64,000 bases of DNA, from assembly GCA_021324015.1 (NCBI GenBank), contig JAJPJX010000159.1, positions 62,001 to 126,000 of the forward strand. Direction: 5' to 3'. Shown here one piece after another: positions 2,575-30,290 of this stretch. Within the stretch, counting starts at the first letter, position 1. Every line of letters starts with the position of its first letter. Source of the stretch: Solibacteraceae bacterium. Lineage in GTDB: Bacteria > Acidobacteriota > Terriglobia > Bryobacterales > Bryobacteraceae. The notes below the pieces were generated by a model, which was not told the origin of the DNA, did not search any database, and saw only the letters and a program-made list of their open reading frames with translations. Both the position numbers and the translations under genes were made by a program.

Positions 2575-2591
2575 AGTTTGTATGATAAGGC

Positions 2592-4234: not shown

Positions 4235-4240
4235 ATCCGG

Positions 4241-5173: not shown

Positions 5174-5279
5174 GAAAAGCCCGGTACGCCCTCCGCGTGA
5201 ACAGACATTAACCAAGTTATCACGCTCTTTTCTGCGCGGTTGCGGGAACTTTTCGGGGCGCCTCCGCGTTCCACAGTCC

Positions 5280-6563
5280 ATGGGATTCGTGTTGTCGGAA
5301 GCCTCATCCCCCGCGGCGAGTGTCACCCGGCCGATGGTAAAAGCCTTGTTCTTCGCAAGTTGCCTGCTATCCGTCGTCTCCTGGTACACCACCTGGCAGG
5401 GTATGGCGCTGTATCTCTCCGCATGGTTTTCGCTGCTGGCGTCGCTCGGCGTGCAATGCGCGCTGGTATTCGTCGCCTGGCTGATCGGCTTCACCAAGAC
5501 GCGCCGCGCGCTGCTGGTGGCGGTCTACGTCATCACGGCGGTGGTTTCCATCGCCTTCTCCTATGTCAGCCTGTACACCTGGTTTTCGGCCCGTGAGCGG
5601 CCCATGCAGGTGGAGCGCAAGCTGTATGACACGCTGAACACCGCCGTGGACCAGACGGAGCAGGTAGTGGCGGCGGCCATCAACGAGGGACAGAAGCACG
5701 TGCTGGCGCTGGACGAAATGACCGAGGCGGAAAAGACGCACGGGTACATTTCGCGGGCTCAGGACGCGGATCCGTACCTGGCGAAAATCCGGGGGGCAGT
5801 GGCGCAGGAGGCGCGGACCTACTCGGCGACTTACCAGGAGGGCGCCGGCGGCGGGCTGAGGTACACGGCTTTCGACCGCTACGCGAAACTGACGCGCCAA
5901 TCGGTGGAACGGATGCAGGAGGCCCAGAAGAACCTGACGAATTTCCGGGCGCAACTGAAGCCCCTGGAGCCGACTGACAAACAACTGCGGGACTTCCGGC
6001 AGGCCTACGATGCGGTGCCCTGGAACGACGTCGAGCAGTCGCTACACGCGGCCCGCTTCGAGCGGCCGGCCGTCCCGAATTATGCCGATTACGTGGACCG
6101 GTCCGCCAGCGGTCAGGAGGATCTGCTGATCGCTTTCCAGGAGCTCCTCACGGCGCCTACCAACCGGCATGTCTTTTCGCTGGCCCTGGCAGCATTCATC
6201 GACATTATCGTCTTCCTGCTGGCGTACGCCTCGGGCCCTTACTTCTTTGGCAGCGCGGAACAGCGCTGGTTCTCGGCCGGAGCTGCGCTGGAGGCGCTGG
6301 ACCACCAGGTGTTCGTGCGCGACTTCCTGCGCAAACTGACGGCCGGGCCGCGCGGCGTAGCGCGCGTGGAGGCGGCGGCCCTCACGCCGGGCGAACAGCA
6401 GGTGTGCCTGCTGCTGGTGGGTAAAGGCTCGGCGGCGATCCAGGAAGAAGAAGGCAAGACCTGGTATCTGCTGAGCCCGGAGGTGCACGAGCAGCTTCTG
6501 GAGGCCCTGGCTTCGCAGGGCTTTCGCCTGAGAGCCGCCACACCGCGCGCCGCCATGAGCTGA
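5280..6563 (+). CDS. Multi-pass membrane protein with long extramembrane helical region, function unknown
   Basis: The protein has about 427 residues from the ATG at 5280. Three hydrophobic segments lie at roughly 20-37, 43-68 and 75-98. A long polar, probably helical region spans about 100-295 (RKLYDTLNTAVDQTEQ, then KLTRQSVERMQEAQK). A fourth hydrophobic helix lies around 297-320, and a soluble tail of about 100 residues follows. The layout resembles sensor or scaffold membrane proteins, but no catalytic or signalling motif is visible. It diverges from the diguanylate cyclase with about 106 bp between starts. An open frame continues upstream to 5172, but that stretch overlaps the neighbour's start and lacks membrane-protein character. 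No family was recognised. Confidence 0.75.
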   Translation: MGFVLSEASSPAASVTRPMVKALFFASCLLSVVSWYTTWQGMALYLSAWFSLLASLGVQCALVFVAWLIGFTKTRRALLVAVYVITAVVSIAFSYVSLYTWFSARERPMQVERKLYDTLNTAVDQTEQVVAAAINEGQKHVLALDEMTEAEKTHGYISRAQDADPYLAKIRGAVAQEARTYSATYQEGAGGGLRYTAFDRYAKLTRQSVERMQEAQKNLTNFRAQLKPLEPTDKQLRDFRQAYDAVPWNDVEQSLHAARFERPAVPNYADYVDRSASGQEDLLIAFQELLTAPTNRHVFSLALAAFIDIIVFLLAYASGPYFFGSAEQRWFSAGAALEALDHQVFVRDFLRKLTAGPRGVARVEAAALTPGEQQVCLLLVGKGSAAIQEEEGKTWYLLSPEVHEQLLEALASQGFRLRAATPRAAMS

Positions 6564-6571
6564 AGAGTCCT

Positions 6572-6594
6572 GCCCGCCTGCATCAGGCACGGGC
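6572..6594. terminator. Candidate bidirectional terminator hairpin without U-tract
   Basis: Arms GCCCG-CCTG and CAGG-CA-CGGGC pair around a CAT loop between two convergent genes and include the stop of the minus-strand gene. No T-run follows on either strand, so this is only a candidate. Confidence 0.3.
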
Positions 6595-6981
6595 GTGCCT
6601 CTCCGACCTGCGGGCCAGGCGGACGGCGAGGCAATGAACGTAGGGAATAATGGCGCAACGGCTTCCTTCGTATGCCGTAATCAGCAGGGCTGCCCACACC
6701 AGCAGAAAGCTCACATTCATGGCGAAGCGCAACTGGCGCGCCAGCATGCTCAGAAAGAGAGGGCAGACTTGTTCGAGCAGGCGCAGCAGGCCCCACGCGA
6801 GCCCCCAAACCGCTGTCATCAACGCCGAGTGGAAGGCGTGAAAGCGGATGGACCAAATATTCCCGTACGGGGGGAAATGCAGAAAAATGCCGGCCGAGAA
6901 AGGGCCGAGCAGGTAGCACAAGAGGCGAGCCTGAGCTTCTGAGCACCGGCCGGCGGAGTGGTCTCGAACATGTGTCCCCAT
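6583..6981 (-). CDS. Small membrane protein, DUF4870-like
   Basis: The protein has 132 residues from the ATG at 6979-6981, which has a GAGG ribosome-binding site about 8 bases upstream. After a short polar N-terminus, the segment RLLCYLLGPFSAGIFLHFPP begins the first hydrophobic region. It is followed by IRFHAFHSAL, and the pairing of these two motifs is typical of DUF4870/Tic20-like small membrane proteins. Two more hydrophobic segments follow near 85-115, and the C-terminus is Arg-rich and probably cytoplasmic. The function of the family is not established. A frame open to 7137 exists, but the upstream portion has no protein-like character. The gene is convergent with the preceding membrane protein. 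Confidence 0.7.
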   Translation of the reverse strand: MGTHVRDHSAGRCSEAQARLLCYLLGPFSAGIFLHFPPYGNIWSIRFHAFHSALMTAVWGLAWGLLRLLEQVCPLFLSMLARQLRFAMNVSFLLVWAALLITAYEGSRCAIIPYVHCLAVRLARRSERHARA

Positions 6982-16310: not shown

Positions 16311-17498
16311 CTATCCCAGCAGTTCCGCAAGGCGGCGGGCGACGATCTTGTGCTCGTCGCCCTGCATCATCCACACGGAAATAGTCATGCCGCGCTCGTC
16401 GCGGGCGAAGATGGCGATGGAGGGGTCGCCCGCCATGAGTTGCTGCGACACCTCGCGGGCGGTCAGCTTGCCTTCCCAATCGAGCTGCACGTGGGGCACG
16501 TGGTTGGCGATTTCGGGCACAACGATGCTGGCCTTTACACCGGGCAGTTTGGACATCACATCGATGATGTGGTTTGCGCGGCTTTCGAGCAGACGCCTCT
16601 CGGCGTCGTGATCCACTTTAAGATAGCGCTCCACGGCGGCGAGCAGGCCGATCATCTCCTCCTTCCCGACTTTCATGCCGCGGCCGATGCCGTCGTGCGG
16701 GCTGATGGCCGGAATGGCAGCTTCGATGAGGTCCTTGCGCCCCAACAGAAGGCCGGAGCACTGCGGCCCCAGGAGCCCTTTGCCGCCGGAGAAGGTCACC
16801 AGGTCAAAACCCTCCTTGACGTACTGTGCCAAGTGCTCGCGGGGTGGAACGTCGGCGGCGGCGTCATTGAAGGTCGGGATGTTGCGCTCTTTGCCGATCT
16901 TGATCCACTCGTCGCGCTTGATCTGCCCTCGGGGCTCGGAGACGTTGGTGAAGTAGAGGACCGCGGTACGGTCGTTGATGGCCGCCATTAGCTCTTCGCG
17001 GGTTTCCACGTGGATGATCTTGGCGCCGGTGACCCGGATCTGAGCCTCGTATCCTACGGCGTGGCTCTTCTGTTGGATGACCTCGTGTTTCAGGCCCGTA
17101 ACATCCGGCAGGCGGTGGAAGTCCTCCATGTTGCCGCGCGCGATGCAGGCGGCGGTGCCCACGGCGATGGCGGAGGCGGCGCCGGCGGTGACCATGGCCG
17201 CGGGGATATCCAGCAGTTCCGCGATCCGGGCGCCGACTTTGCGCTGGAGGTCGGGCAACTGGACGAAATAGCGGGAGGCCTCCTCCATGGCCCGCACCAC
17301 CTCGGGGGGCATGATCGAGCCGCCCAGCACGGTGACCGTGCCGACGCCATTGATCAAAGGCCTGACGCCCAGGCGGGTATACACATTGGCTTCCGCGAAC
17401 GAATTTACCTTGGCGCCGCGAGGCGCGGCCAAAGCCCCGGCCGCCGGCAGAGCCGCCGTGGCCTTCAAGAACCCTCTGCGTGTCGCACGATTCGCCAT
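16311..17498 (-). CDS. Tat-signal SelA/DgaE-type PLP-dependent enzyme
   Basis: A 395-residue fold-type I PLP enzyme of the SelA / D-glucosaminate-6-phosphate ammonia-lyase group. The internal aldimine Lys is K240 in FSGGKGLLGPQ, the family signature. Asp212 in TFNDAAAD probably pairs with the pyridine nitrogen. Unusually, the N-terminus (ANRATRRGFLKATAALPAAG) is a twin-arginine signal, so the enzyme should be exported folded with PLP. An AAGGAGGA ribosome-binding site precedes the ATG closely. It follows the M81 peptidase gene by 21 bp on the same strand, implying a bicistronic unit. The substrate, probably an amino acid or amino sugar acid, is not known. Confidence 0.87.
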   Translation of the reverse strand: MANRATRRGFLKATAALPAAGALAAPRGAKVNSFAEANVYTRLGVRPLINGVGTVTVLGGSIMPPEVVRAMEEASRYFVQLPDLQRKVGARIAELLDIPAAMVTAGAASAIAVGTAACIARGNMEDFHRLPDVTGLKHEVIQQKSHAVGYEAQIRVTGAKIIHVETREELMAAINDRTAVLYFTNVSEPRGQIKRDEWIKIGKERNIPTFNDAAADVPPREHLAQYVKEGFDLVTFSGGKGLLGPQCSGLLLGRKDLIEAAIPAISPHDGIGRGMKVGKEEMIGLLAAVERYLKVDHDAERRLLESRANHIIDVMSKLPGVKASIVVPEIANHVPHVQLDWEGKLTAREVSQQLMAGDPSIAIFARDERGMTISVWMMQGDEHKIVARRLAELLG

Positions 17499-17519
17499 CT
17501 TTTCCTCCTTGACTGCTTT

Positions 17520-19091
17520 TTACGGCTTTTCCGGATCCAGTCCGAACAACGGCCGACGCACTCGTTTGAACGTATATCGCGCCGGATTCACCGCCGTCAA
17601 GCCCGGGGTGTCCACCGGGATAATTTTGGCGGCGATGGGCTCATAGGCTGCGCGCGGGGCGATGGTGCCCTTGGCGATCAGAATATGCTGGCGCTCCGGA
17701 TAGATTCCCAGGCTGACGATCTGCTGCAAGCTGTCCGGGGTGACGCGGTGGCTATTCAACACCAGCAGGTTCAGCAGATCCGGCGTGGAGCCCTCGACTT
17801 CGATCACCGCGGTCAACCCCTGGTCGAAATAGCGGCCGCCGCCGTGGCGCACTTCGGTTTCGATGTACTTGCCGTCGTGGAGAGACTTCACGCGCCCCCG
17901 GACCGGCACGGGGTCGCCGTGGAACTTGTCGGTCTTGCCGCCCACCGGCATGTCGAAGCTGCCGCCGATGCCCGCCCGGACCGCGGCCTGGACGGCTTGC
18001 GGGTCATAGATGGTCATGACCCAGCCCTGGGCCTTCTGGCGCAGCAATTCGGCGAGCAGGAAGGTGCTGTCGCCCGCCGAGCCGCCGCCGACGTTATCGC
18101 CCATGTCCATGAGGGTGACGGGAAAGCGGTCCGAAGCCATGGCCTGGCGGACTGCCTCGGCGGCTTCGGGCAGGTGCAGGCGAAGCTGGTCGCGGGTGTC
18201 CCAGAGCATGTCGGAGAGCCTCTTCGCCTCGCGTTTGGCCAGTTCGGGATCGTTGTCGGTGACCACGATGACGCTGGGGCCCATGGCCGGGACGTCGGCG
18301 TACTGATAGCCGCCGGGGACGCTAACGGCCAGGATCTTGGGGTTCCGCTCCAGCCGGCGGCTCTCGTCCGTGATGGGCTTCAAGGGAGGCCTGCTGGTCT
18401 GCTGATACACGATGTTGTAGAGCATGGGCGGCTTGGCGAGAGCCTGCACCGGCTTGACCCTTCCGCTGACCACCAGCGACATGATGCGCGCCGCCTGGAT
18501 GCCACGCTCCTGGGTATCCAGGTGCGGATTCTGCTTGTAGGTGATGAGCGCGGTGGTCTCGTCCACGATCTGCTGGCTGACGTTGGCGTGAAAATCGTGC
18601 GTGACGATGATGGGGAACGACGGCCCCAGGACGGCGCGCAGGCGCCGCACGATCTCAGGGTCACCCTGCGGGTAGGTTTCCTCGACCATCGCGCCATGCA
18701 GCGCCAGCAGCAGGCCGTCCAGATGCGGCGCGGCTTTGAGACGCCGGATGAGTTCGCCGGTCAGGTAGTTGAAGGCTTCGTCCGTGACCGGACCCCTGGG
18801 CGTGGCGTACGTCACAAGCGTCGGATAGAGGTCCAGGCCGTATTGCCGCGCGCCCAAGACGAAACCGCTGATTTCGTCCTTGGCTTTCGCCCACTCGGCC
18901 AGCGTGGCCTCGGGCGTCGAGACCGGGCGAATACGGAAGTCGTGGAGGCCCGTCTTGGCGGGATTGAACGAGTCGGACTCGTGCTTGATGCCGCCCACGG
19001 CGATGAGCGGGTGGTGCGTCTGGGCCAAGGCGGCCGTGGCGCACAACACCAACGGAAGAAAACGGGTCATAGAAATTGCAGTGGTCCTCAT
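17520..19091 (-). CDS. Exported M81-family (MlrC/microcystinase C-like) metallopeptidase
   Basis: About 523 residues. The signal sequence TRFLPLVLCATAALA is followed by the M81 hallmarks: HPLIAVGGIKHESDSFNP at the N-terminus, LLLALHGAMV, VTHDFHANVS with metal ligands, and a C-terminal half ending in the family pattern that includes VLNSHRVTP. M81 members are zinc enzymes acting on linear peptides such as degraded microcystin; many relatives have unknown peptide or amide substrates. I chose the ATG at 19089-19091 because AAGGG lies just upstream; the ATG at 19070 is an alternative. Only 15 bp then separate it from the divergent acetamidase start. It probably forms an operon with the following PLP enzyme. 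Confidence 0.87.
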   Translation of the reverse strand: MRTTAISMTRFLPLVLCATAALAQTHHPLIAVGGIKHESDSFNPAKTGLHDFRIRPVSTPEATLAEWAKAKDEISGFVLGARQYGLDLYPTLVTYATPRGPVTDEAFNYLTGELIRRLKAAPHLDGLLLALHGAMVEETYPQGDPEIVRRLRAVLGPSFPIIVTHDFHANVSQQIVDETTALITYKQNPHLDTQERGIQAARIMSLVVSGRVKPVQALAKPPMLYNIVYQQTSRPPLKPITDESRRLERNPKILAVSVPGGYQYADVPAMGPSVIVVTDNDPELAKREAKRLSDMLWDTRDQLRLHLPEAAEAVRQAMASDRFPVTLMDMGDNVGGGSAGDSTFLLAELLRQKAQGWVMTIYDPQAVQAAVRAGIGGSFDMPVGGKTDKFHGDPVPVRGRVKSLHDGKYIETEVRHGGGRYFDQGLTAVIEVEGSTPDLLNLLVLNSHRVTPDSLQQIVSLGIYPERQHILIAKGTIAPRAAYEPIAAKIIPVDTPGLTAVNPARYTFKRVRRPLFGLDPEKP

Positions 19092-19106
19092 TTTACCCTT
19101 ATTCCT

Positions 19107-20102
19107 ATGCGCAGATTCGTCTTCCTTGCTTTCCTGCCGGCGCTGATGTTTTCCGCCGAGCATCGCGTGGTCGCGGAGCACTACTATCACACCTTTTCGC
19201 GCAGCAATCCGGTGCTGCTGCGTGTGGCCCCCGGGGACAGGGTGATCACCAAGACCGTGGATTCGGCGGGGTTCGATTACCAGGGGGTGCGCCGCACCAA
19301 GACGCACGGCAATCCCCTGACCGGGCCCTTCTACGTGGAAGGAGCCGAACCGGGCGATGCGCTGGTGGTGCGCCTGGAGCGGGTCCGGCTGAACCGGAAT
19401 TCCGGATACACGGGTTACCGGCTGGGTGGAGGGGCGGTGCTCCCCGAGTACGTCGAATCCATGTACCCCGGCCGCTACAAGGAAGACGTAGTGCTGAAAG
19501 GCCGGTCAGACCTGGTACCGTGGGAAATCGACCTCCAGCGCAACACCGTGCGGCCACGCGAACCTCTGAGCCCGCGCGCGCGGCTGGAATTTCCGGCGCG
19601 ACCCATGCTCGGGTGCATCGGCGTGGCTCCGGCCGGTGACTTCACTCCCACTTCCGGGCCGGCGGGCCCCTGGGGCGGGAATATGGACTTCAACGAAGTC
19701 GGGGAGGGGGCCACGGTGCTGCTGCCGGTATTTCAACCCGGGGGGCTGTTCTACCTGGGCGACGGCCATGCTTTGCAGGGCGACGGTGAACCGATCGGCT
19801 CCGGCGTCGAAACCTCGCTGGACGTGGAGTTCGTCATCGATCTGCGGAAGAAGGCGGGCTTGACTGGGCCACGGCTGGAGAATGCCGACTACCTGGTCAG
19901 CATCGGCCCACAGCCCGAATTCAGCAGTTCGCTTGACCACGGGCTGCAAATGGCCACCACGGACATGATTCACTGGCTGACCCGGGACTATGGCCTGGAC
20001 CCGGTGGCCGCGCACATGATCATCGGTTACCAGGGGCAATACGTGGTCGTGACGGTGGCGGGGACCATGGCCTTGAAGATCCCCAAGCGCGTGCTACGCT
20101 GA
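19107..20102 (+). CDS. Exported acetamidase/formamidase family protein
   Basis: A 331-residue FmdA/AmdA-type amidase with a Sec signal (RRFVFLAFLPALMFSA). Typical family stretches include NPLTGPFYVEGAEPGD, ARPMLGCIGVAP and WGGNMDFNEV, the last containing the conserved GGNMD motif. Family members hydrolyse small amides and are normally cytoplasmic and beta-sandwich in fold, so a signal peptide is notable but not rare in Acidobacteriota. The frame is open far upstream, but that part is antisense to the M81 and PLP genes. No clear ribosome-binding site precedes this ATG. The next gene starts 4 bp after the stop, so the two are probably co-transcribed. Confidence 0.87.
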   Translation: MRRFVFLAFLPALMFSAEHRVVAEHYYHTFSRSNPVLLRVAPGDRVITKTVDSAGFDYQGVRRTKTHGNPLTGPFYVEGAEPGDALVVRLERVRLNRNSGYTGYRLGGGAVLPEYVESMYPGRYKEDVVLKGRSDLVPWEIDLQRNTVRPREPLSPRARLEFPARPMLGCIGVAPAGDFTPTSGPAGPWGGNMDFNEVGEGATVLLPVFQPGGLFYLGDGHALQGDGEPIGSGVETSLDVEFVIDLRKKAGLTGPRLENADYLVSIGPQPEFSSSLDHGLQMATTDMIHWLTRDYGLDPVAAHMIIGYQGQYVVVTVAGTMALKIPKRVLR

Positions 20103-20105
20103 ATT

Positions 20106-21482
20106 TTGTTGTACGCATTGTTTCTGCTCGCGGCTGCCCTGGCCGCCGAATCGGCCCCTCCGCGCACTTTGCGCCTGGACTACTTTCATACTGGCACTGC
20201 GGCCGGGGAACATTTCGCGCTGGATGGCCTGGCGCTGGAGGGTCCGTGGCCCGGCCCGCTCGACAAAACCCTGGACGACACAAACCTGGGCAAGTACTTC
20301 TTCGTGGTGATCGACCGCCGTACCAACCAGGTTCTCTACTCGCGCGGCTTCGCCAGCATCTACGGGGAATGGGAGACCACCGACGAAGCTAAGGAGCAAC
20401 CGCGCGGTTTCCGGGAATCCATCCGCTTTCCCCTGCCGGCCGCGCCGGTGCAGGTGGTGATCCGCAAGCGCGACCGGCAGAACGCTTTCCGGGAGGTGTG
20501 GTCCGTGCTGGTGGACCCCGCAGATCCGGCCATCGACCGCGCGGCGCCTCCGGCGGCAAAGGTGTGGGCCGTGATGCGGAATGGAGAACCACGGGATAAG
20601 GTGGACCTGCTGCTCATGGGCGACGGCTACACGGCCGCCGAGCTGGAGAAGTGGCACGCCGACGCTCGCCGCCTGACGGAGATCCTGTTTGCCGCTTTGC
20701 CGTTCAAGGAGCATCGCGGCGACTTCAACGTCTGGGCCCTGGACACGCCGGCCGCGGAGAGCGGCGTCTCGCGGCCTTCGGATGGAGTTTACCGTCACTC
20801 TCCGCTGGGCGCGGCCTATGACGCTTTCGGGTCGGAGCGCTACGTCCTGGCGTTCGACAACGAGCGCGTGCGCGAGGCCGCCGCCGCGGCGCCCTACGAG
20901 TTCATCGAGATTGTGGTCAACGACCGCAAGTACGGCGGTGGGGGGATTTTCAACCTGTACGCCACGGTGGCCGCCGACAACGCCTTTACGCCGTACATTT
21001 TCGTGCACGAGTTCGGGCACCACTTCGCGGGCCTGGCGGATGAATACTACACCTCCGATGTGGCGTACGAGGCCGGCGCACAAAGGCTCGAGCCGTGGGA
21101 GCCGAACGCCACCGCCGACCCGCACGCCGGCAAATGGAAAGAACTGATCGCTGCCGGAACCCCGCTGCCGACTCCCTGGCCCAAAGAGGCGTTCGAGTCG
21201 ATGGAGAAGGAAATTCAGGCCAAGCGCCGCGAGATCCGCGCGCAGCACCGCCCGGAGCAGGAGATGGAGGCGCTGTTCAGGGACGAGCGCGAGCGTATCA
21301 CGCGCCTGCTCAGCGGCGGACCGTATGCCGGCAAGACCGGGGCGTTTGAAGGCGCCAACTACCAGGGGCGCGGATACTACCGGCCGCAGCAGGATTGCAT
21401 CATGTTCACGCGCGACGAGGTGGGCTTCTGCGCGGTGTGCCGCCGGGCCATTGAGCGCGTGATTCGCCTCTACACGCATTGA
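20106..21482 (+). CDS. Secreted M64-family (IgA-peptidase-like) metallopeptidase
   Basis: A 458-residue exported peptidase beginning with a TTG codon and a short hydrophobic signal (LYALFLLAAALAAE). The zinc site is H301-E-F-G-H305, followed by FAGLADEYY, the extended HExxHxxGxxDE signature of M64. Peptidase M64 was first described from a Clostridium IgA-cleaving enzyme; soil homologues have unknown targets. An N-terminal beta-rich domain occupies roughly 20-150. A Cys-containing C-terminal stretch (CIMFTRDEVGFCAVCRRAI) may form disulfides or bind metal. It lies 3 bp after the acetamidase, and its stop overlaps the next start as TGATG, coupling it to the Topo III-RecQ gene. Confidence 0.9.
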   Translation: MLYALFLLAAALAAESAPPRTLRLDYFHTGTAAGEHFALDGLALEGPWPGPLDKTLDDTNLGKYFFVVIDRRTNQVLYSRGFASIYGEWETTDEAKEQPRGFRESIRFPLPAAPVQVVIRKRDRQNAFREVWSVLVDPADPAIDRAAPPAAKVWAVMRNGEPRDKVDLLLMGDGYTAAELEKWHADARRLTEILFAALPFKEHRGDFNVWALDTPAAESGVSRPSDGVYRHSPLGAAYDAFGSERYVLAFDNERVREAAAAAPYEFIEIVVNDRKYGGGGIFNLYATVAADNAFTPYIFVHEFGHHFAGLADEYYTSDVAYEAGAQRLEPWEPNATADPHAGKWKELIAAGTPLPTPWPKEAFESMEKEIQAKRREIRAQHRPEQEMEALFRDERERITRLLSGGPYAGKTGAFEGANYQGRGYYRPQQDCIMFTRDEVGFCAVCRRAIERVIRLYTH

Positions 21483-24400
21483 TGTCCCCAGACTCCGCCG
21501 GGCAAACCGCCGTCGTCGCCGAAAAGCCATCCGTCGCCCGGGATATCGCGCGCGTGTTACGCGCTACGCAACAAGGCAACGGCTACCTGCACGGAAACGG
21601 GTACGTGGTGACCTGGGCCATCGGCCACCTGGTGGCGCTGGCGCAGCCGCACGAAATCCGCCCGGAGTGGCGCCAGTGGAGGCGGGACTTGCTGCCCATG
21701 CTGCCGCGCGAGTGGCCGCTGGTGGTCTACGAAAAGACCAAGGACCAGTTCGAGGTGGTGCGGAAGATCCTGAGCTCGCCGCGCGTCGCGCGGGTGGTGT
21801 GCGCCACCGACGCCGGCCGCGAGGGGGAACTGATCTTCCGCTACATCTACGAGGCCGTCGGGTGCCGTAAGCCTGTCCAACGCTTGTGGATCTCTTCGTT
21901 GACGCCGGAGGCCATCCAAAGGGGCTTCGAGAACCTGCGCGACGGGCGGGACTACGATCCCCTGGCGGATGCCGCGCGGGGGCGCAGCCGGGCGGACTGG
22001 CTGGTGGGCATGAATCTTTCGCGCGTCTATTCGCTGGCCTACCGGGAGGAACTTTCCGTGGGTCGCGTGCAGACGCCCACGCTGGCCATGGTGGTGGAGC
22101 GGGAACTGGCTATCCGCGCCTTTGTCCCGGCAGACTACCTGGAGGTCGTAGCCACTTTCTCGCCGGTGGGTGTGGAGCCGCCGGCCTCGTACCAGGGCAC
22201 CTGGTTCCGCCTGGAGAAAGACCAGCGCGTGACGCGCCTCCCGGCCGATGGCGAAGAGGCGGGGCGCATCGTGGCCCGGGCGCGCATGGGTGAAGCGCGG
22301 ATCGAATCCATCGCATCCGAAACCCAGCGCATGGCGCCGCCGCTGCTCTACGACCTGACGGAGCTCCAGCGCCACGCCAACCGGCTTTACGCCTTCAGCG
22401 CGCAGAAGACCCTGGAACTCGCCCAGGCGCTTTACGAGCGGCACAAGCTGATCAGCTATCCGCGCACCGACAGCCGGCACCTCTCCGCGGATGTGGCCAA
22501 GACACTGCCCCGCATTGTGCAGGCCATCGCGGCGCCATACCAGGGAATGCTCGCGCCAGGAACCGGGGAGCGCCCGCTGGGCCGCCGTTTCGTGGACGAT
22601 TCGAAAGTCACCGATCACCACGCGCTCATTCCCACGGTCACTTCGCCGGGAAAGGCGTCGCTTTCCCCGGACGAACAGAAGATCTACGACCTGATCTGCC
22701 GCCGCCTGTTGAGCGCCTGGCACGGCGACCATATCTGGTCCGTAACCACGGTGATCACCAGGATCACCAACGGCGAGATCGCCGACCGCTACTACGCCAC
22801 CGGCACCGCTGTCCAGCAGGTCGGATGGAAGGTTCTGGACATCGCCGCGGAGAAGAAGAAAGAACGCCGCCGCGCGCAGGAGGGCGCTGAGGAGCCCGCC
22901 GAGCAGGTCCTGCCGCCCGGCTTGCGCCAGGACCAGCCGCAGACGGTGGCCGAGGTGGAACCGGTGCGGAAGCGCACCCGGCCTCCGCGGCGCTTCACCG
23001 AAGGCACCCTGCTCACGGCCATGGAAACGGCGGGAAAGACGCTCGACGAGAAGGAACTTTCCGAGGCGATGAAGGAGACCGGGCTGGGCACGCCCGCCAC
23101 GCGCGCGGCGATCATCGAGGTGCTCTTCGAGCGCGGGTATATCGAGCGGCAAGGCAAGAGCCTGGCAGCCACAGAGAAGGGCATCAACCTGATCGAAGTG
23201 GTGCACCCGGAGGTCAAGAGCCCGGTCATGACGGGGCAGTGGGAGGCGTACCTGAAGCGCATCCAGCGCGGCGCCGCCCAACTCGATCCGTTTCTCGAAG
23301 GCATCGAGAACTACGTGCGGGAAGTGGTGGGCAAGGTGGGGCGGGAGCCGGCACGGGCGCCGTCCGCCAAACCCCTTGCTCACGCGCACGGCCCGGCCCC
23401 GGATTCTGAGCCACGACCGTCAGGGAGTGGTTCTTCAGAGTCTCCGCACCCTGCCCCCGCCCCTGTGCCCAACGGTGACCTGGCGCAACTGTTGAATTCG
23501 GCATTCGGGTTTTCTTCGTTCCGGCCCAACCAGGAGGCCGTGTGCCGGGCGGCCACACGGGGCGAGGATGTCCTGCTGGTGATGCCCACGGGTTCGGGGA
23601 AGTCGCTGTGCTACCAACTGCCCGGCCTGGCGCGCGGCGGCACCACGCTGGTGATCAGCCCGCTGATCGCTCTGATGGAAGACCAGGTGGCCAAACTCAA
23701 GCAACACGGCTTCGCGGTGGACCGCATCCACTCCGGCCGCGACCGGGCCGCCTCCCGCCAGACGTGCATCGAGTATCTCAACGGAAAACTGCAATTCCTA
23801 TTCATCGCGCCGGAGCGCATGCGCGTCAGCGGCTTTCCGGAAATGCTGGCGAAGCGCAAGCCCACGCTGATTGCCGTGGACGAAGCGCACTGTATTTCCC
23901 AATGGGGCCACGATTTCCGCCCGGACTATCGCATGCTCGGCCAGTACCTGCCCATGCTGCGGCCGGCGCCGGTGGTGGCCCTGACGGCCACCGCCACGCC
24001 CCCGGTGCAGAACGACATCGTGGAGCAACTCGGGCTCATCCAGCCGAACCGCTTCATCCACGGCTTCCGCCGCGAAAACATCGCCATCGAAGTCGTGGAG
24101 GTGGCGCCGGGTGACCGGCCCGCGTTGGTCCGCGAGCTGCTCGAGGAAGAATCCCGGCGCCCGGCCATCGTCTACACGCCGACGCGGAGGGCCGCGGAGA
24201 GTTTGGCGGAGGACCTGGCCGCCGAGTATCCGGCGGCAGCCTATCACGCGGGCCTGGATGCCGGGCGCCGCAAGGAAGTGCAAGCCCGCTTCCTCGACGG
24301 CAAGCTGGAAGTGATGGTGGCCACCATCGCGTTTGGCATGGGCATCGACAAGCCGGACGTGCGCACTATCCTGCACACGGCGCTGCCGGGAAGCCTCGAA

Positions 24401-25576
24401 GCGTACTACCAGGAAATGGGCCGCGCGGGGCGTGACGGCCTGCCCTCCCGCGCCATACTGATGCACTCCTACGCCGACCGCTACACGCACGATTATTTCT
24501 TCGAACGCGACTATCCTGATGTAAAAGTACTGGACGGTATCTTTGCGCGGCTGGGCGCGGAGCCGCAACCCAAGGAGCTGTTGCAGAAGCAGGCGCGCAT
24601 GGATCCGGACCTGTTCGACCGCGCGCTCGAGAAGTTGTGGATCCACGGCGGCGCGCTGGTGGATTACGCCGAAAACATCAGCCGCGGGCAGGAGGGGTGG
24701 CGCGGAGCCTACATCGCGCAAGGCGAGCACAAGGCGGCGCAGCTCGAACTGATGCTGCGCTACACGGAGACCAGCCACTGCCGGATGCTGGCGCTGGTAC
24801 GGCACTTCGGCGATTTCGCCGATGCGCAACGGGCCTGTGGCATCTGCGATTTCTGCGCCCCGGCATCCTGTGTGGCGCAGCGCTTCCGCGCGGCCACGGA
24901 AACCGAGAAGCAGGCGCTGTTCCGCATCCTGGATGCGCTGAAGCAGAATGACAACATGGCCACAGGCCGGCTGCACGCCGACCTGTTTGCCGATGGCTCG
25001 CTGGCCCGGCGGGACTTCGAGCAGGTGCTCGGCGCGATGGCCCGCGCCGGCTTGGTGCAGATGGCGGACGCCTCCTTCGAAAAAGACGGCCGCCGCATCG
25101 ACTTCCGCAAAGTGCGCTTGACCCGCGCGGGTCGCGAGGCGGATGAATCCACGCCCATCGTGTTCGCACTCAAAGAAGTGGCGGGGACGCAAAAGAAGCG
25201 CAAAAAGCGCAAAGCGGCGCCGGGCGCCGCCAAGCCCAAGCCGAAGGCCAAACCCAAGGAAGCCGCGACGGTCCGGCCGGCCAGGCCTGCGGCGCCGCCC
25301 AAGCCGGCGGAGCGTGGCGCCGCGCCGGAGCCTCCACGACAAGGCGAACAGGAAGCGCGCTCGGAGGCCGAGCAGGCCATGCGCGCCTGGCGCCTGGCGG
25401 AAGCCAAGCGCCGCAACGTACCGGCCTTCCGCATTCTGACGGACAGTGCGCTACAAGCCATCGTCGCCGCCATGCCGGCCACCGCCGCCGAATTGCTGCG
25501 CATTCCGGGGGTGGGCATCAGCACCGTGGAGAAGTATGGCGCGCAGATCTTCCGCCTGTTGCACGAGAGGCGGTAG
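21482..25576 (+). CDS. Topoisomerase III-RecQ helicase-HRDC fusion protein
   Basis: One uninterrupted frame of 1364 residues joins two enzymes that normally act as partners. Residues 1-617 are a type IA topoisomerase III: Toprim start VVAEKPSVARDIA, acidic motif ATDAGREGELIF, catalytic Tyr326 in ISYPRTDSR, and GLGTPATRAAIIEVLF. C-terminal zinc ribbons are absent. Residues 618-663 are a Pro/Ser/Ala-rich linker. Residues 665-1050 are a RecQ helicase core: Walker A PTGSGKS near 701, DEAH 800-803, TATAT, FGMGIDKPDVR and QEMGRAGRDG. The RecQ zinc site follows (ACGICDFC near 1117), then a winged-helix-like segment, a Lys-rich linker and a C-terminal HRDC domain (about 1297-1364). Expected activity is coupled unwinding and strand passage of recombination or replication intermediates. 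The start overlaps the M64 stop. Confidence 0.95.
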   Translation: MSPDSAGQTAVVAEKPSVARDIARVLRATQQGNGYLHGNGYVVTWAIGHLVALAQPHEIRPEWRQWRRDLLPMLPREWPLVVYEKTKDQFEVVRKILSSPRVARVVCATDAGREGELIFRYIYEAVGCRKPVQRLWISSLTPEAIQRGFENLRDGRDYDPLADAARGRSRADWLVGMNLSRVYSLAYREELSVGRVQTPTLAMVVERELAIRAFVPADYLEVVATFSPVGVEPPASYQGTWFRLEKDQRVTRLPADGEEAGRIVARARMGEARIESIASETQRMAPPLLYDLTELQRHANRLYAFSAQKTLELAQALYERHKLISYPRTDSRHLSADVAKTLPRIVQAIAAPYQGMLAPGTGERPLGRRFVDDSKVTDHHALIPTVTSPGKASLSPDEQKIYDLICRRLLSAWHGDHIWSVTTVITRITNGEIADRYYATGTAVQQVGWKVLDIAAEKKKERRRAQEGAEEPAEQVLPPGLRQDQPQTVAEVEPVRKRTRPPRRFTEGTLLTAMETAGKTLDEKELSEAMKETGLGTPATRAAIIEVLFERGYIERQGKSLAATEKGINLIEVVHPEVKSPVMTGQWEAYLKRIQRGAAQLDPFLEGIENYVREVVGKVGREPARAPSAKPLAHAHGPAPDSEPRPSGSGSSESPHPAPAPVPNGDLAQLLNSAFGFSSFRPNQEAVCRAATRGEDVLLVMPTGSGKSLCYQLPGLARGGTTLVISPLIALMEDQVAKLKQHGFAVDRIHSGRDRAASRQTCIEYLNGKLQFLFIAPERMRVSGFPEMLAKRKPTLIAVDEAHCISQWGHDFRPDYRMLGQYLPMLRPAPVVALTATATPPVQNDIVEQLGLIQPNRFIHGFRRENIAIEVVEVAPGDRPALVRELLEEESRRPAIVYTPTRRAAESLAEDLAAEYPAAAYHAGLDAGRRKEVQARFLDGKLEVMVATIAFGMGIDKPDVRTILHTALPGSLEAYYQEMGRAGRDGLPSRAILMHSYADRYTHDYFFERDYPDVKVLDGIFARLGAEPQPKELLQKQARMDPDLFDRALEKLWIHGGALVDYAENISRGQEGWRGAYIAQGEHKAAQLELMLRYTETSHCRMLALVRHFGDFADAQRACGICDFCAPASCVAQRFRAATETEKQALFRILDALKQNDNMATGRLHADLFADGSLARRDFEQVLGAMARAGLVQMADASFEKDGRRIDFRKVRLTRAGREADESTPIVFALKEVAGTQKKRKKRKAAPGAAKPKPKAKPKEAATVRPARPAAPPKPAERGAAPEPPRQGEQEARSEAEQAMRAWRLAEAKRRNVPAFRILTDSALQAIVAAMPATAAELLRIPGVGISTVEKYGAQIFRLLHERR
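23402..23440. repeat. REP-like repeat unit inside the Topo III-RecQ linker
   Basis: The stretch around GAGCCACGACCGTCAGGGAG shares the core CGACCGT(C/G)AGGGAG with the right arm of the inverted repeat at 51300-51355; about 19 of 25 bases match. Here it is translated as part of the linker (SEPRPSGSGSSES). It may be a dispersed intergenic element. Only two copies are visible, so the family is inferred. Confidence 0.45.
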
Positions 25577-25590
25577 CGGGAACTGCCGCC

Positions 25591-27192
25591 TCACCGCGCG
25601 CGCAATACCTGACCGCCGTTTTCGGCCGTCAGCACGCCGTTTTCGATCTCCACTTTTCCGTTGACGATTACGTACGGCATGCCCTCCGGAAAGGCCATGG
25701 GCTTGGTGAAGGTGGCCGTATCCTGCACCTGGTCCGGATCGAACACCAGCAGGTCTGCCGCCATGCCCGGGGCGATGCGGCCGCGGTCGTAGAGTTTGAG
25801 CTCGTTCGCGGGCAGGGAACTCATCTGCCGCACTGCCGCCGCGAGACTGATCACCTTTTCGTCGCGCACGTACTTCGCCAGGATGCGCACGAACGAACCG
25901 AAGGCCCGCGGGTGGGCGTTGGTCGTGACGGCAGGATCGGTGGGCGGAGAATCGGTGCACACGCTCATCCATTCGGTCCGGAGCGCCTGGCGCTTCTGCT
26001 CCTCGTTCATGCTTTTGGGATTCACTTCCACCCGGCCCTGCTGCACCAGATCGAAGAAAGTGGTCCAGTCATCCGTGCCGCGCATCCTGGCGATCTCGGC
26101 CACGGATTTTCCTTCGAACCGCTTGTCCATGCCCTCACCGACTTCCGCCACGAGCACGTTATCCCAGTTGCGGCCCACGTGCAGATACCAGTTCTCCCAA
26201 TCCGCATCGGTCTCGATTTCGCGGCGCAACGCCGCCCGCACCCGCGGATTGGCCAGGGTCTTGACGAACGCCGCGTGTCCCTCGGCGTAGTGCCGCGGGT
26301 GGATGAATGAACCCAGCCCGATACCATTGCGGATATAGGGATAGATATCGGCGGTCACATCCAGTCCCCGGTCGCGCGCGCTCTGAATCAGCGCGATGGC
26401 CTGGGTCATGAGGGGCCAGTTCTGCTCGCCCGCGGCCTTGAGGTGGAAGATGTGCACGGGGAGCCCGCCCTCTTCGCCGATGCGGATGGCTTCCCGGATG
26501 GAGTCCAGCACCTGGCTGCTCTCGTTGCGCATGTGGGTGAAGTAGACGCCGCCGTACTTACCGGCCACCTTGGCCAGTTCGATCAATTCCTCGGTGGTGG
26601 CATAGGTTCCGGGTGGATAGATCAGGGCGCTGGAAAGCCCCACCGCGCCGTCGCGCATCGCCTGTTCGACGAGGTCCTTCATGCGCGCCAGTTGCTCTGG
26701 AGTGGGCGCGCGGTTCTGGTCGCCGATGACCATCTGCCGCACCTGCGCCGCGCCCACGTTATGCACCACGTTGATGGGGATGCCCGCCCGCTCGAGCGCC
26801 GGATAGTAGTCGCGGAAGCGGAGCCAGCGCGCGCTGGGCGCCACCGATCCGCCCTCGCCCGCGAGAATCGTGGTGATGCCTTGCCGGAGCTTGCTCTGCG
26901 CGCTGGCGCGATTCTCGAGCAGCGGTTCACTCGTGGCCCCCATCATGTCGATGAAGCCTGGGGACACCACCTGTCCGTGCACCTGAATGGTCCGCCGGGC
27001 GCTGCGGCCGGCAAGTGCGCCGATTTCGGTGATCCGTCCCCCGAGAATGCCCACATCGGCCCGGTACCAGGGGTTGCCGGAGCCGTCCACAATGCGCCCG
27101 CCGGCCAGAATGAGATCGAAATCCTGGCCCCACGCGGCGGCGCCGCAGAGCAGGAACCAGAGAATGGCGCGCCGCACTATCGCCCCATCCAT
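25591..27192 (-). CDS. Exported D-aminoacylase-like amidohydrolase with altered metal site
   Basis: A 533-residue amidohydrolase of the N-acyl-D-amino-acid deacylase family with an N-terminal signal (RRAILWFLLCGAAAWGQ). Family features include LILAGGRIVDGSGNPWYRAD and a C-terminal RIAPGMAADLLVFDPD. The HxH motif normally after GFID is missing (FIDMMG, 80-85), and the usual Cys ligand motif reads AGEGGSVAP. The later ligands H220 (FTHMRNE), H250 (FHLKAAG) and a late Asp (CTDSPP) remain. It may therefore use a single metal or have another activity. The ATG at 27190-27192 overlaps the KduD-like gene by 16 bp; a GTG at 27175-27177 forming TAGTG with that gene's stop is an alternative start. It is the last gene of a three-gene minus-strand operon. 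Confidence 0.82.
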   Translation of the reverse strand: MDGAIVRRAILWFLLCGAAAWGQDFDLILAGGRIVDGSGNPWYRADVGILGGRITEIGALAGRSARRTIQVHGQVVSPGFIDMMGATSEPLLENRASAQSKLRQGITTILAGEGGSVAPSARWLRFRDYYPALERAGIPINVVHNVGAAQVRQMVIGDQNRAPTPEQLARMKDLVEQAMRDGAVGLSSALIYPPGTYATTEELIELAKVAGKYGGVYFTHMRNESSQVLDSIREAIRIGEEGGLPVHIFHLKAAGEQNWPLMTQAIALIQSARDRGLDVTADIYPYIRNGIGLGSFIHPRHYAEGHAAFVKTLANPRVRAALRREIETDADWENWYLHVGRNWDNVLVAEVGEGMDKRFEGKSVAEIARMRGTDDWTTFFDLVQQGRVEVNPKSMNEEQKRQALRTEWMSVCTDSPPTDPAVTTNAHPRAFGSFVRILAKYVRDEKVISLAAAVRQMSSLPANELKLYDRGRIAPGMAADLLVFDPDQVQDTATFTKPMAFPEGMPYVIVNGKVEIENGVLTAENGGQVLRAR

Positions 27193-27947
27193 CCGCCATC
27201 CACGGTGACGATGGATCCGTTCACATAGTCGGAAGCCCGAGATGCCAGAAAGACGGCGACGCCTTTGAAATCGTCCGGCGTGCCCCACCGGCCGGCCGGA
27301 ATGCGGGACAGGATGGCCGGATTGCGCACCGGATCGTTGCGCAGGGCCTCGGTGTTGTCCGTGGCAATGTAGCCTGGGGCGATGGCGTTCACCTGCACGC
27401 CCTTGGCGGCCCACTCGTTGGCCAGCGCCTTGGTGAGGGAGCCGATGCCGGCCTTGGCCGCGGCGTACCCCGGCACGGTGATGCCGCCCTGGAAGGTTAG
27501 CAGGGAAGCCGTGAAGATGATTTTGCCGGCACCGCGCTCCACCATGCGCCTGCCGATCTCACGGCTCAGCACGAACTGCGCGTTCAGGTTGATTTCGATG
27601 ATGCGGTCCCAATACTCATCGGGATGCTCCGCGGCCGGTTTCCGCAGAATCGTCCCGGCGTTGTTGACCAGGATATCGATCACCGGGAAGTCCGCGGTCA
27701 CCTGGCGGATGAAGGCGTACAGCGCCTGGCGGTCGCCGAAATCGCAGGCGTACCCGCGGAACCGGCGCCCCAGGGCCAGCACCTCCTTTTCGAGCGCGCT
27801 GCCCGTAGTCTCCAGGGAGGCACTGACGCCAATGATATCCGCGCCGGCCTCCGCCAGCGCCAGCGCCATGGCCTTGCCGATGCCCCGGCGCGAGCCGGTT
27901 ACCAGGGCGACCTTGCCGTCCAGCCGAAATTGATCCAAAACGTTCAT
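27177..27947 (-). CDS. kduD: KduD-like short-chain dehydrogenase (2-dehydro-3-deoxy-D-gluconate 5-dehydrogenase)
   Basis: A 256-residue cytoplasmic SDR. The NAD(P)-binding motif is VTGSRRGIGKA; the catalytic residues are Ser in FTASLLTFQGGI and YxxxK in YAAAKAG. Resemblance to E. coli KduD, which interconverts 2,5-diketo-3-deoxygluconate and 2-keto-3-deoxygluconate, is strong in several blocks: FQGGI, NEWAAKGVQVNAIAPGY, RIPAGRWG, ASDYVNG and the C-terminal VDGGW. Pectin or uronate breakdown is therefore the likely pathway. It follows the alcohol dehydrogenase by 4 bp and overlaps the deacylase start, so the three genes are one transcription unit. Confidence 0.87.
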   Translation of the reverse strand: MNVLDQFRLDGKVALVTGSRRGIGKAMALALAEAGADIIGVSASLETTGSALEKEVLALGRRFRGYACDFGDRQALYAFIRQVTADFPVIDILVNNAGTILRKPAAEHPDEYWDRIIEINLNAQFVLSREIGRRMVERGAGKIIFTASLLTFQGGITVPGYAAAKAGIGSLTKALANEWAAKGVQVNAIAPGYIATDNTEALRNDPVRNPAILSRIPAGRWGTPDDFKGVAVFLASRASDYVNGSIVTVDGGWMGR

Positions 27948-27951
27948 CGCT

Positions 27952-28971
27952 TTATTCCGCGCACTTCACCAGAATCTTCATGACTTCCCCGCCGCGCTCC
28001 ATCTGCCGCAGGCCCTGCTCGAGCTGATCGAGCGAGTAGACGTCCGTGATCAGGCGCGGGAAGGGCAGCGCCCCGCCGGCGGCCAGTTGAATCGCCCGTT
28101 CGAAATCCTGGTGCTCGTAGACCCGGGCTCCGCAGAGCTTCAGCTCGCGCCAGAAGAAGCGGAACAAGTCCACCTTGGGCTGCTCCCCGAAGATGGCGAC
28201 GATCACGATGCGCCCGCGCACGCGGGGCAGCTTGGTCATGAGCTCCGCCCCGGCGGCAGAGCCGGAGACCTCGAAGATCACGTCGGCGCCGGCGCCGCCG
28301 GTCTGCTCCTCGACGTACTCGACGACGTTGGTTTGCCGGGGATTGATCACCTCCAGGCCCAGTTCCTGCGCCAGTTGGATGCGGAAGGGGTTGACCTCGG
28401 TGACCAGCACCCGCGCACGCTCGTGGCGGGCCACCAATGCTACCAGCGTGCCGATCGGACCGCTGCCCTGGACCACCACAAAATCGCCGGGCTTGACCTC
28501 TCCCAGGCGCACGTCGTGGCAGGCCACGGCAATCGGCTCGACCAGCGCGCCGTGCTCCAGCGAGAGCGAGTCCGGCAGATGGTGCAGAGTGTGCGCCGGC
28601 ACGGTCCACAGGCCTTGCAGCGCTCCCGGGGAATCGATGCCGATAAATTTCAGGCGCTGGCAGACGTGGCTGTGACCAGCCTTGCAAGCGGGGCACTCGC
28701 CGCAGGGATCGAGCGGCATGACCGTGACGCGATCGCCCTCCCGGTAGCCCGTGACGCCCGGCCCCAGATTCACGATGGTGCCGGACATCTCATGCCCGAT
28801 GACCTGCGGGAGGCGCACGCGGTGATCCATTTTGCCGTGGAACAGATGCAGGTCTGTGCCACAAATCCCGCAGTGCGAGACCTGAATCTGCACCTGCCCG
28901 GCGGCCGGCGGCAGCGGATGGCACTCGCCCACGCGTATGGTCTCGTGGCCTTCGTAATATGCGGCTCGCAT
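27952..28971 (-). CDS. Zinc-dependent medium-chain alcohol/polyol dehydrogenase
   Basis: A 339-residue MDR enzyme of the sorbitol/threonine dehydrogenase type. The catalytic zinc site shows HCGICGTDLH and GHEMSGTIV. The structural zinc loop has four Cys (CGECPACKAGHSHVC). The Rossmann motif is GSGPIGTL. Length and motif order are standard, and no signal peptide is present. Substrate is probably a sugar alcohol, sugar acid or hydroxy acid; the operon partner KduD-like dehydrogenase suggests a hexuronate-derived compound. The ATG at 28969-28971 begins MRAAYYEGHE, a usual start for the family. It is divergent from the D-threonine-aldolase-like gene across a 92-bp region holding a small palindrome. 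Confidence 0.9.
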   Translation of the reverse strand: MRAAYYEGHETIRVGECHPLPPAAGQVQIQVSHCGICGTDLHLFHGKMDHRVRLPQVIGHEMSGTIVNLGPGVTGYREGDRVTVMPLDPCGECPACKAGHSHVCQRLKFIGIDSPGALQGLWTVPAHTLHHLPDSLSLEHGALVEPIAVACHDVRLGEVKPGDFVVVQGSGPIGTLVALVARHERARVLVTEVNPFRIQLAQELGLEVINPRQTNVVEYVEEQTGGAGADVIFEVSGSAAGAELMTKLPRVRGRIVIVAIFGEQPKVDLFRFFWRELKLCGARVYEHQDFERAIQLAAGGALPFPRLITDVYSLDQLEQGLRQMERGGEVMKILVKCAE

Positions 28972-28994
28972 TTCACCGCAAGTGTATCACCCCG

Positions 28995-29014
28995 CACCGC
29001 CCCTATCGGCGGTG
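28995..29014. promoter_or_regulatory. Palindrome in divergent intergenic region, candidate operator
   Basis: CACCGCC and GGCGGTG form a perfect 7-bp inverted repeat around a 6-base spacer, between the starts of the divergent alcohol dehydrogenase and D-threonine-aldolase-like genes. It could be a regulator site or a chance GC-rich hairpin. Confidence 0.25.
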
Positions 29015-29063
29015 GCAGAAAAGTTGTACACTCTAGCGCATAACCCCCAATGGAGGCTGTCCG

Positions 29064-30290
29064 ATGACTTCACGCAGATCGTTTTTACAGGCCGGCGCTG
29101 CCGGAGCCATGCTGGCCGGCACGGTGCGCGGCGCCCGCAGCGAATACTCGTTCCCGGAGTTGGAGGCGCGCATCGCGCGTAAGGATTTCCGCGGCATTAC
29201 CAAGGCCGATCTCCCCACTCCGTGCATGGTGCTGGAGCAGGAGCTGTTCGAGGCGAACGTGCACAAAATGGCGGAGCACTGCAAGGCCAACAAGATCAAC
29301 CTGCGCGCGCATGTGAAGATCCACAAGTGCCCGGAGATCAGCAAACGCCAGCAGGCCCTGGGCGCGATCGGCGTGTGTTGCGCCACCATCGCCGAAGTGG
29401 AACTCATGTCCGGCTCCGGCATTCGCGGCGTGCTGCATACGTGCCAGCCCGTGGGCCGCAACAAGGTCAGCCGCGCCATTGCCGTGGCGAAGAAAGACCC
29501 CACCGTGAACTGGGTGGTGGATGACCCCATTACGGTGGATACGCTGGAAGAGGCCGCCGGCGCGGCGCACACCAAGATGAACGTCGTGGTGGATGTGTAT
29601 GCCGGCCTCACCCGCCAGGGTATCCAGCCTGGCGATCCCGCTCTGGCGCTGGCCCAGAAAGTCGACAAGTGCAGGAACCTCCGGCTGATCGGCATCATGG
29701 GCTACTCGGGCGGGGCTTCGCACACCCATGGTTTTGAGGCGCGCAAGCAGCGCTCCGCGCAGGACATCGCCGGCATGCTGGAGACCGCCCACCGCGCCAA
29801 GGAATCCGGACTGCCCATCCAGATCATCACCGGTGGAAGCACCGGCACGTACAACATCGACGTCGGTTCTCTCACGGAACTGCAAGCCGGTTCGTACATC
29901 TTCATGGATACGCTCTACCGCAAGATCGGCGGCAAGGACGATCCGGAGGTGTATTCCGACTGGCAGCCGGCGCTGACCGTCCTGACCACGGTGATCAGCA
30001 AGACCCGGCCGAACCAGGCGGCGATCGACGCAGGCAACAAAGCCTTGCTGCGCCCCACCGATCAGGTGAAGGGCCGTCCGGGGGTGCGTATCGAAAACGG
30101 TGGCGCCGAATACGGCATGCTGCTGGTGAACGACGGCGACCGCGACTTCAAGCTCGGCGACCAGGTGGAGATCTACCCCTCAAACCTGGATATGAGCACG
30201 AATGTTTACGATCGCTATTACGTGGCTCGCGGCGAGCAGATCGTGGACGTCTCGCCGATCATGGGCCGCGCCGGCGCCCCGCAGCGCTGA
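29064..30290 (+). CDS. Tat-exported D-threonine-aldolase-like PLP enzyme
   Basis: A 408-residue fold-type III PLP enzyme of the DSD1/D-threonine aldolase family. The N-terminus SRRSFLQAGAAGAMLAG is a twin-arginine signal. The Schiff-base Lys is K85 in RAHVKIHKC, matching RPHxKTHK in characterised members, and a phosphate-binding stretch ITGGSTGTY is present. The C-terminal metal site of the family, normally His plus Cys or Asp, reads PSNLDMSTNVYDRYY, with Asn where His is usual. Activity on D-threonine or D-serine is therefore uncertain. A GGAGG ribosome-binding site precedes the ATG. It is convergent with the double PIG-L gene, separated by 5 bp. Confidence 0.83.
   Translation: MTSRRSFLQAGAAGAMLAGTVRGARSEYSFPELEARIARKDFRGITKADLPTPCMVLEQELFEANVHKMAEHCKANKINLRAHVKIHKCPEISKRQQALGAIGVCCATIAEVELMSGSGIRGVLHTCQPVGRNKVSRAIAVAKKDPTVNWVVDDPITVDTLEEAAGAAHTKMNVVVDVYAGLTRQGIQPGDPALALAQKVDKCRNLRLIGIMGYSGGASHTHGFEARKQRSAQDIAGMLETAHRAKESGLPIQIITGGSTGTYNIDVGSLTELQAGSYIFMDTLYRKIGGKDDPEVYSDWQPALTVLTTVISKTRPNQAAIDAGNKALLRPTDQVKGRPGVRIENGGAEYGMLLVNDGDRDFKLGDQVEIYPSNLDMSTNVYDRYYVARGEQIVDVSPIMGRAGAPQR

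Follow-up and report, generated by a model that had tools for sequence, protein, structure and literature searches.

RecQ-family motors travel 3'-5' on single-stranded DNA (ssDNA), topoisomerase III (Topo III) passes single strands, and jointly the two turn joint molecules into separated duplexes. In well-studied bacteria they are separate proteins. Cooperation between Topo III and RecQ-family helicases is documented both in vitro and in eukaryotes (PMC7140829, PMC8185306). A RecQ-Topo III unit in Escherichia coli has been doubted in recent literature (PMC7140829, PMC13244152): no physical interaction between the two E. coli proteins was observed (PMC7140829), and a 2026 study gives the role of Topo III partner to RecG, not RecQ (PMC13244152). 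Here we describe a gene from a soil bacterium of the Solibacteraceae (Acidobacteriota) in which Topo III and RecQ form a single polypeptide. It lies in a 64,000-nucleotide stretch of contig JAJPJX010000159.1, the whole of which we call the window, and the finding matters because the partnership is contested in E. coli. An earlier note on this DNA knew of no characterised protein of such design, and within the open-access literature this holds, as we found no description of a Topo III-RecQ fusion there.

A single frame of 1364 residues at 21482-25576 (+ strand), with zero stops or frameshifts, encodes a complete Topo III core and a RecQ helicase. Pfam places Toprim, Topoisom_bac, DEAD, Helicase_C, RecQ_Zn_bind and HRDC in that order, each above its curated cut-off, and the full layout is Topo III core, disordered linker, RecQ motor, four-Cys zinc site, winged helix and HRDC domain. 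The active-site sets of both halves (Toprim residues, Tyr326, Walker A lysine, DEAH, motif VI arginines and four zinc cysteines) show no variation at covered positions across 46 fused sequences, with the sole exception of the degenerate locus L197. The frame, the Pfam and NCBIfam scores and this conservation bear out the earlier note, which had read Topo III, RecQ and HRDC with intact motifs in one chain. We consider the product to be quite probably a single-chain RecQ-Topo III strand-passage machine, that is, a covalent dissolvasome or toposome. Its features are as follows.

21482-25576, + strand: fused topoisomerase III-RecQ helicase gene, 1364 residues plus stop (open reading frame list, Pfam, NCBIfam)
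21480-21484, + strand: TGATG overlap, whose A is common to the fusion ATG and to the stop codon of the M64 peptidase gene upstream
21509-21898, + strand: Toprim domain, residues 10-139, with E14, D110 and E114 (Pfam)
21953-23296, + strand: Topoisom_bac, the type IA catalytic domain, residues 158-605, 355.7 bits (Pfam; fold match to E. coli Topo III, 2o5c and 1i7d)
22457-22459, + strand: catalytic Tyr326, invariant where covered in the fusions and aligned to E. coli Topo III
23348-23464, + strand: disordered linker, residues 623-661, rich in Pro, Ser and Ala, at the site of the stand-alone zinc-ribbon tail
23522-24007, + strand: RecQ motor lobe 1 (DEAD), residues 681-842, with Walker A at 702-708 and DEAH at 800-803 (Pfam)
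24122-24439, + strand: RecQ motor lobe 2 (Helicase_C), residues 881-986, with motif VI R981 and R984 (Pfam)
24521-24685, + strand: subfamily-specific insertion between motor and zinc domain, residues about 1014-1068
24779-24856, + strand: RecQ zinc site, C1100, C1119, C1122 and C1125
24872-25126, + strand: winged-helix-like region at the RQC position, residues 1131-1215
25226-25321, + strand: low-confidence tether rich in Lys, Pro and Ala ahead of HRDC, residues about 1249-1280
25373-25558, + strand: HRDC domain, residues 1298-1359 (Pfam)

The N-terminal half scores as a topoisomerase III with both NCBIfam NF005829 (683.7 bits, cut-off 597) and TIGR01056 (577 bits, cut-off 515.75). Its nearest solved structures by sequence are those of E. 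coli Topo III (1d6m, 2o19 and 1i7d among them), and its predicted model matches the same fold, with 31% identity to 2o5c. Y326, R328, E14, D110 and E114 show no variation where covered among the fused sequences; Gly112 replaces the second Asp of the Toprim DxDxE motif (ATDAGRE), as it does in many stand-alone Topo IIIs of the subfamily. The region aligned to the E. coli decatenation loop is of similar length and weakly conserved. The NF005829 profile ends at position 600 of 669, and the linker and RecQ come next. A Cys-rich C-terminal tail (4-18 Cys) is present in 10 of the 11 stand-alone Topo IIIs examined and absent from the fusion, in line with the earlier note, which had found the Topo III zinc ribbons missing, and the tail common in stand-alone Topo III is thus replaced by linker and RecQ. 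E. coli Topo III itself lacks such ribbons, which are hence not defining for the whole family. A Topo III of 1063 residues elsewhere (L127 in G046, 1321-4509) has a Cys-rich tail of about 400 residues with three Toprim_Crpt repeats.

Reverse gyrase, too, covalently unites a superfamily 2 (SF2) helicase with a type IA topoisomerase (PMC8185306), and the fusion could be imagined as its independently evolved counterpart, an ATP-driven topoisomerase that changes supercoiling directionally. We find this quite improbable. The reverse gyrase model TIGR01054 gives 110 bits against a cut-off of 471.7, and over the topoisomerase part only; a RecQ takes the place of the helicase-like domain, the linker is disordered, and the Pfam order, with the topoisomerase first and the helicase C-terminal, is opposite to that of reverse gyrase, just as the earlier note had it.

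The C-terminal half belongs to the RecQ family (TIGR00614, 388 bits, cut-off 219.8), and the motor motifs, four-Cys zinc site and HRDC domain of that family are all present. Its nearest solved structure by sequence is E. coli RecQ (1oyw), and its model matches RecQ/BLM structures. It scores below the cut-off of the classical RecQ equivalog TIGR01389 (481 bits against 640.2) and is placed outside the classical RecQs on the RecQ tree, which together mark a distinct subfamily. Motif VI and the CxxCxxC motif are separated by 129-134 residues in fusions compared with 62-75 in classical RecQs, about 65 extra residues, and the predicted model gives the insertion in this interval three helices and a beta wing. 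Pfam RecQ_Zn_bind spans residues 1080-1125; the Pfam RQC model does not recognise the winged-helix-like region that follows. Other unusual RecQ-like proteins were seen along the way: a RecQ with an N-terminal extension of about 360 residues and no Pfam match in it (L139 in G080, 3889-6912), RecQ-like frames of 1650-1791 residues in the source's class (G125, G133, G159, G175, G154 and G249), and a 1358-residue protein in which a RecQ-like motor and a UvrD-type helicase are combined (L162).

A PADLOC-DB model labelled DpdF (PDLC02865, 1499 positions) gives 1797 bits over both parts of the source protein and 2356 bits for a Myxococcota fusion, and was evidently built from the fusion family. Taken at its word, this label would make the fusion DpdF, which serves as helicase in the Dpd system of 7-deazaguanine DNA modification and defence, a reading to which we attach hardly any weight. 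The curated NCBIfam model NF041063 gives only 198 bits against a cut-off of 550, there are no Dpd genes among the seven neighbours tested, and the PADLOC label is unspecific, since an ordinary Serratia RecQ reaches 1102 bits with sibling models that bear it too; a Dpd defence link was rejected on these grounds. The fusion family is already catalogued in PADLOC-DB, under a misleading name that belongs to another protein and without a stated function. As an observation on the database itself, PDLC02865, PDLC02861 and PDLC02864, all named DpdF, give very high scores to Topo III-RecQ fusions and to ordinary RecQs, so PADLOC DpdF calls may include many unrelated RecQs.

Both parts of the protein are predicted with confidence (mean predicted local distance difference test (pLDDT) 90 and 89), and the overall predicted template modelling score (pTM) is 0.61; with two confident domains, so low a value means that no fixed arrangement of the halves is predicted. 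Between them the linker has pLDDT <50 at residues 623-661. Across fusions its length ranges from 24 to 267 residues, and its ratio of nonsynonymous to synonymous substitution rates (dN/dS), computable for one pair, is 0.18, faster than the domains. A linker that is disordered, variable in length and fast-evolving implies that the fusion sets stoichiometry and local concentration while leaving orientation free. Fixed ratio and fixed geometry had both been proposed for this protein, and of these the ratio stands and the geometry is not supported.

About 60 other genomes, drawn from Acidobacteriota, Myxococcota and one Bdellovibrionota bin, have the Topo III-RecQ architecture too, some of them possibly counted twice across genome collections. 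A scan of GTDB contigs detected 12 loci where a single frame holds both halves, 8 of them complete. A family-model search found fusion-length frames in 12 of the 29 genomes of the source's own family; beyond it, they occur in a genome of the same class (G216) and in another three families sampled from the phylum. In the Myxococcota set around G269, a Topo III match is present in 65 of the 146 genomes, 57 of which have frames of 1216-1815 residues, and both halves were confirmed from DNA in 34. A Bdellovibrionales bin (L022) has one fusion locus, on a 122 kb contig. The two-domain proteins that the earlier note had thought to look for in Acidobacteriota do occur there, but they are no speciality of that phylum, being commoner in the sampled Myxococcota. 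A phage or plasmid origin was rejected, as no place covering 80% of the query was found among the matches listed from phage and plasmid collections. One Myxococcales bin (G262) carries two near-identical E. coli-type Topo IIIs (L204, L221) besides its fusion.

Given this spread, a frameshift, chimeric assembly or sequencing error as the source of the fusion is practically out of the question. Full-length fusions occur independently in many genomes, closed chromosomes included (G137, G350, G387 and G421 are carriers with closed or near-closed chromosomes), independent assemblies share the architecture at 54-74% identity, and the frame is unbroken through the linker, where an error had been feared. 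Separate genes at the locus in G249 were considered and rejected; the break there is a run of N between poly-G/C within the GC-rich linker, an assembly gap. Likewise, two Topo IIIs that lack a full RecQ (G120, G357) are cut by contig ends and are not true splits. G249 is therefore no relative with separate halves. Truly stand-alone RecQs of the subfamily do exist; those of family f59 and of Acidobacteriaceae-type genomes are nested among fusions.

On the topoisomerase tree, the fused topoisomerases form one clade (Shimodaira-Hasegawa-like approximate likelihood ratio test (SH-aLRT) 100) that needs one change of state, and repeated independent fusions are thus not supported. On the RecQ tree, the fused or stand-alone label needs six changes. 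Acidobacteriaceae-type genomes and family f59 have stand-alone RecQs that branch from within the fusions, and a topology that keeps all fused RecQs to themselves is rejected (approximately unbiased (AU) test, p = 0.00011). Together with the topoisomerase tree and a remnant at an f59 locus (L166), this rejection points to losses of the topoisomerase half. At L166, a stop-bearing match to topoisomerase residues 551-623 (about 6468-6680, - strand; E = 5.5e-7) sits directly upstream of a stand-alone RecQ, a pseudogene remnant indicating that the topoisomerase half decayed in place. L197 (G243, 1435-4059) is the reverse case: its Topo III is followed by a truncated RecQ lobe-1 remnant, with DEAH changed to EEAE and lobe 2 missing, so that the fused helicase is reduced to a tail, and the single-contig G243 genome has a separate intact RecQ (L161) elsewhere. 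The simplest reading is one ancient fusion followed by several losses, with vertical descent or transfer among phyla. The two halves are co-inherited, with pairwise distances that correlate (Mantel r = 0.82, reached in 0 of 5000 permutations). Both are under strong purifying selection: in the two close pairs compared, both from Acidobacteriota, dN/dS is 0.035 and 0.077 in the topoisomerase half and, in the helicase half, 0.027 and 0.049.

The source genome (8.2 Mb, 98.8% complete) has nothing besides the fusion that scores above the RecQ-family cut-off, and its type IA topoisomerases are TopA and the fusion; separate topB and recQ genes, about which the earlier note had asked, are absent, and the fusion is the sole copy of each. 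In the sample of its own family, a Topo III above cut-off is fused in all 12 genomes that have one, and there is none in the other 17; a shorter, separate RecQ of another type is also present in three of these 12 (G137, G183 and G241). The fusion starts with ATG at 21482, with a TTG one codon upstream, and the TGATG overlap makes translational coupling to the M64 peptidase gene possible in the source genome, although neighbours vary elsewhere. In the window at 16311-30290 the neighbours are genes for metabolism or for peptidases, namely SelA-like, M81, formamidase, M64 peptidase, amidohydrolase, short-chain dehydrogenase/reductase (SDR), zinc alcohol dehydrogenase and D-serine dehydratase-like genes, with no DNA-repair gene among them. 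A conserved operon around the fusion was rejected, since no neighbours are conserved across relatives, and selection therefore appears to act on the linked pair itself.

A more modest explanation is that the fusion serves co-expression or co-inheritance only, the enzymes working independently and their linkage having no mechanistic role. A flexible linker of anything from 24 to 267 residues and the repeated loss of one half would suit such an arrangement. We nevertheless think it unlikely: a single fused clade has been kept in three phyla without conserved neighbours, the sampled genomes of the source's own family retain this Topo III only when fused, and the Topo III tail has been replaced.

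We propose that the fusion, as a single-chain strand-passage machine, would act on recombination or late-replication intermediates. The RecQ half, using ATP and moving 3'-5' on ssDNA, would unwind or migrate joints such as converging Holliday junctions, D-loops or the last turns between converging forks, thereby exposing single strands or hemicatenanes. Topo III, tethered alongside, would then cut one strand through Tyr326, pass the other and reseal, so that the duplexes separate without crossover. The linker would hold the topoisomerase beside the helicase at 1:1 with orientation free, and the zinc, winged-helix and HRDC modules of RecQ may provide the DNA binding otherwise given by the missing Topo III zinc ribbons. 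The pair itself is made obligate at 1:1 by the fusion; its activities, substrates and coupling we infer.

It is possible, though less probable than not, that the main cellular job of this same machine is to unlink converging forks or precatenanes at termination rather than to dissolve recombination intermediates. Bacterial Topo III has been placed at replication forks as a decatenase (PMC7140829), and the resolution of converging forks by RecQ plus Topo III in vitro is reported by Suski and Marians 2008, as cited in PMC13244152. Sequence and gene context do not separate a termination role from a recombination role, and the two are not exclusive. More speculatively, and with only a small chance in our estimation, the helicase might direct strand passage, giving directional linking-number change or processive joint dissolution beyond that of separate RecQ and Topo III; the fusion would then be a reverse gyrase counterpart assembled independently, from a different helicase and in the opposite order.

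Several points weigh against the fusion being a strand-passage machine. The prediction gives no defined orientation of one half to the other (pTM 0.61). Loss of the topoisomerase half happened several times, with the helicase surviving alone, and G243 shows the opposite, a degenerate helicase half next to a preserved topoisomerase; some lineages can therefore do without the linkage. Further, in E. coli the partner of Topo III was reported to be RecG, not RecQ (PMC13244152), and the fused RecQ is of a different subfamily, so that carry-over to E. coli is not automatic.

That the joined form is old and conserved in three bacterial phyla suggests that in bacteria, too, the two enzymes act in partnership, which is a disputed point. 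A natural covalent fusion, strongly selected in several phyla, is strong evolutionary evidence that bacteria possess a RecQ-Topo III unit, at least one built on the fused RecQ subfamily, and the source genome, which has both functions from the fusion alone, adds weight to it. Beyond this, the fusion offers a one-protein, fixed-ratio system for studying dissolution. Its carriers among Myxococcota include large-genome, Myxococcaceae-like bacteria, in which laboratory genetics may be possible.

Among known systems, adjacent recQ-topB genes, as in Listeria (L224) and in Bacteroidales (L034/L035, about 2.7 kb apart), bring the same two functions to one locus, but as separate proteins of about 40% identity that fall outside the fused clade, with recQ upstream in Listeria. 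With E. coli Topo III (TopB) and RecQ, the fusion has in common the Topo III core fold, the catalytic residues, the RecQ motor, zinc site, winged helix and HRDC domain; it differs in being one polypeptide, in having the Topo III tail replaced by linker and RecQ, and in its approximately 65 extra RecQ residues. Reverse gyrase likewise couples an SF2 helicase-type motor covalently to a type IA topoisomerase, a likeness of kind only, as the helicase of the fusion is C-terminal and a RecQ motor, its linker is disordered and the TIGR01054 cut-off is missed. Compared with the eukaryotic BLM/Sgs1-TopoIIIalpha-RMI dissolvasome, a non-covalent complex, the fusion shows no RMI subunit, carries its topoisomerase N-terminally and its helicase C-terminally, and is covalent; like the dissolvasome, it unites a RecQ-family helicase and a type IA topoisomerase as one unit.

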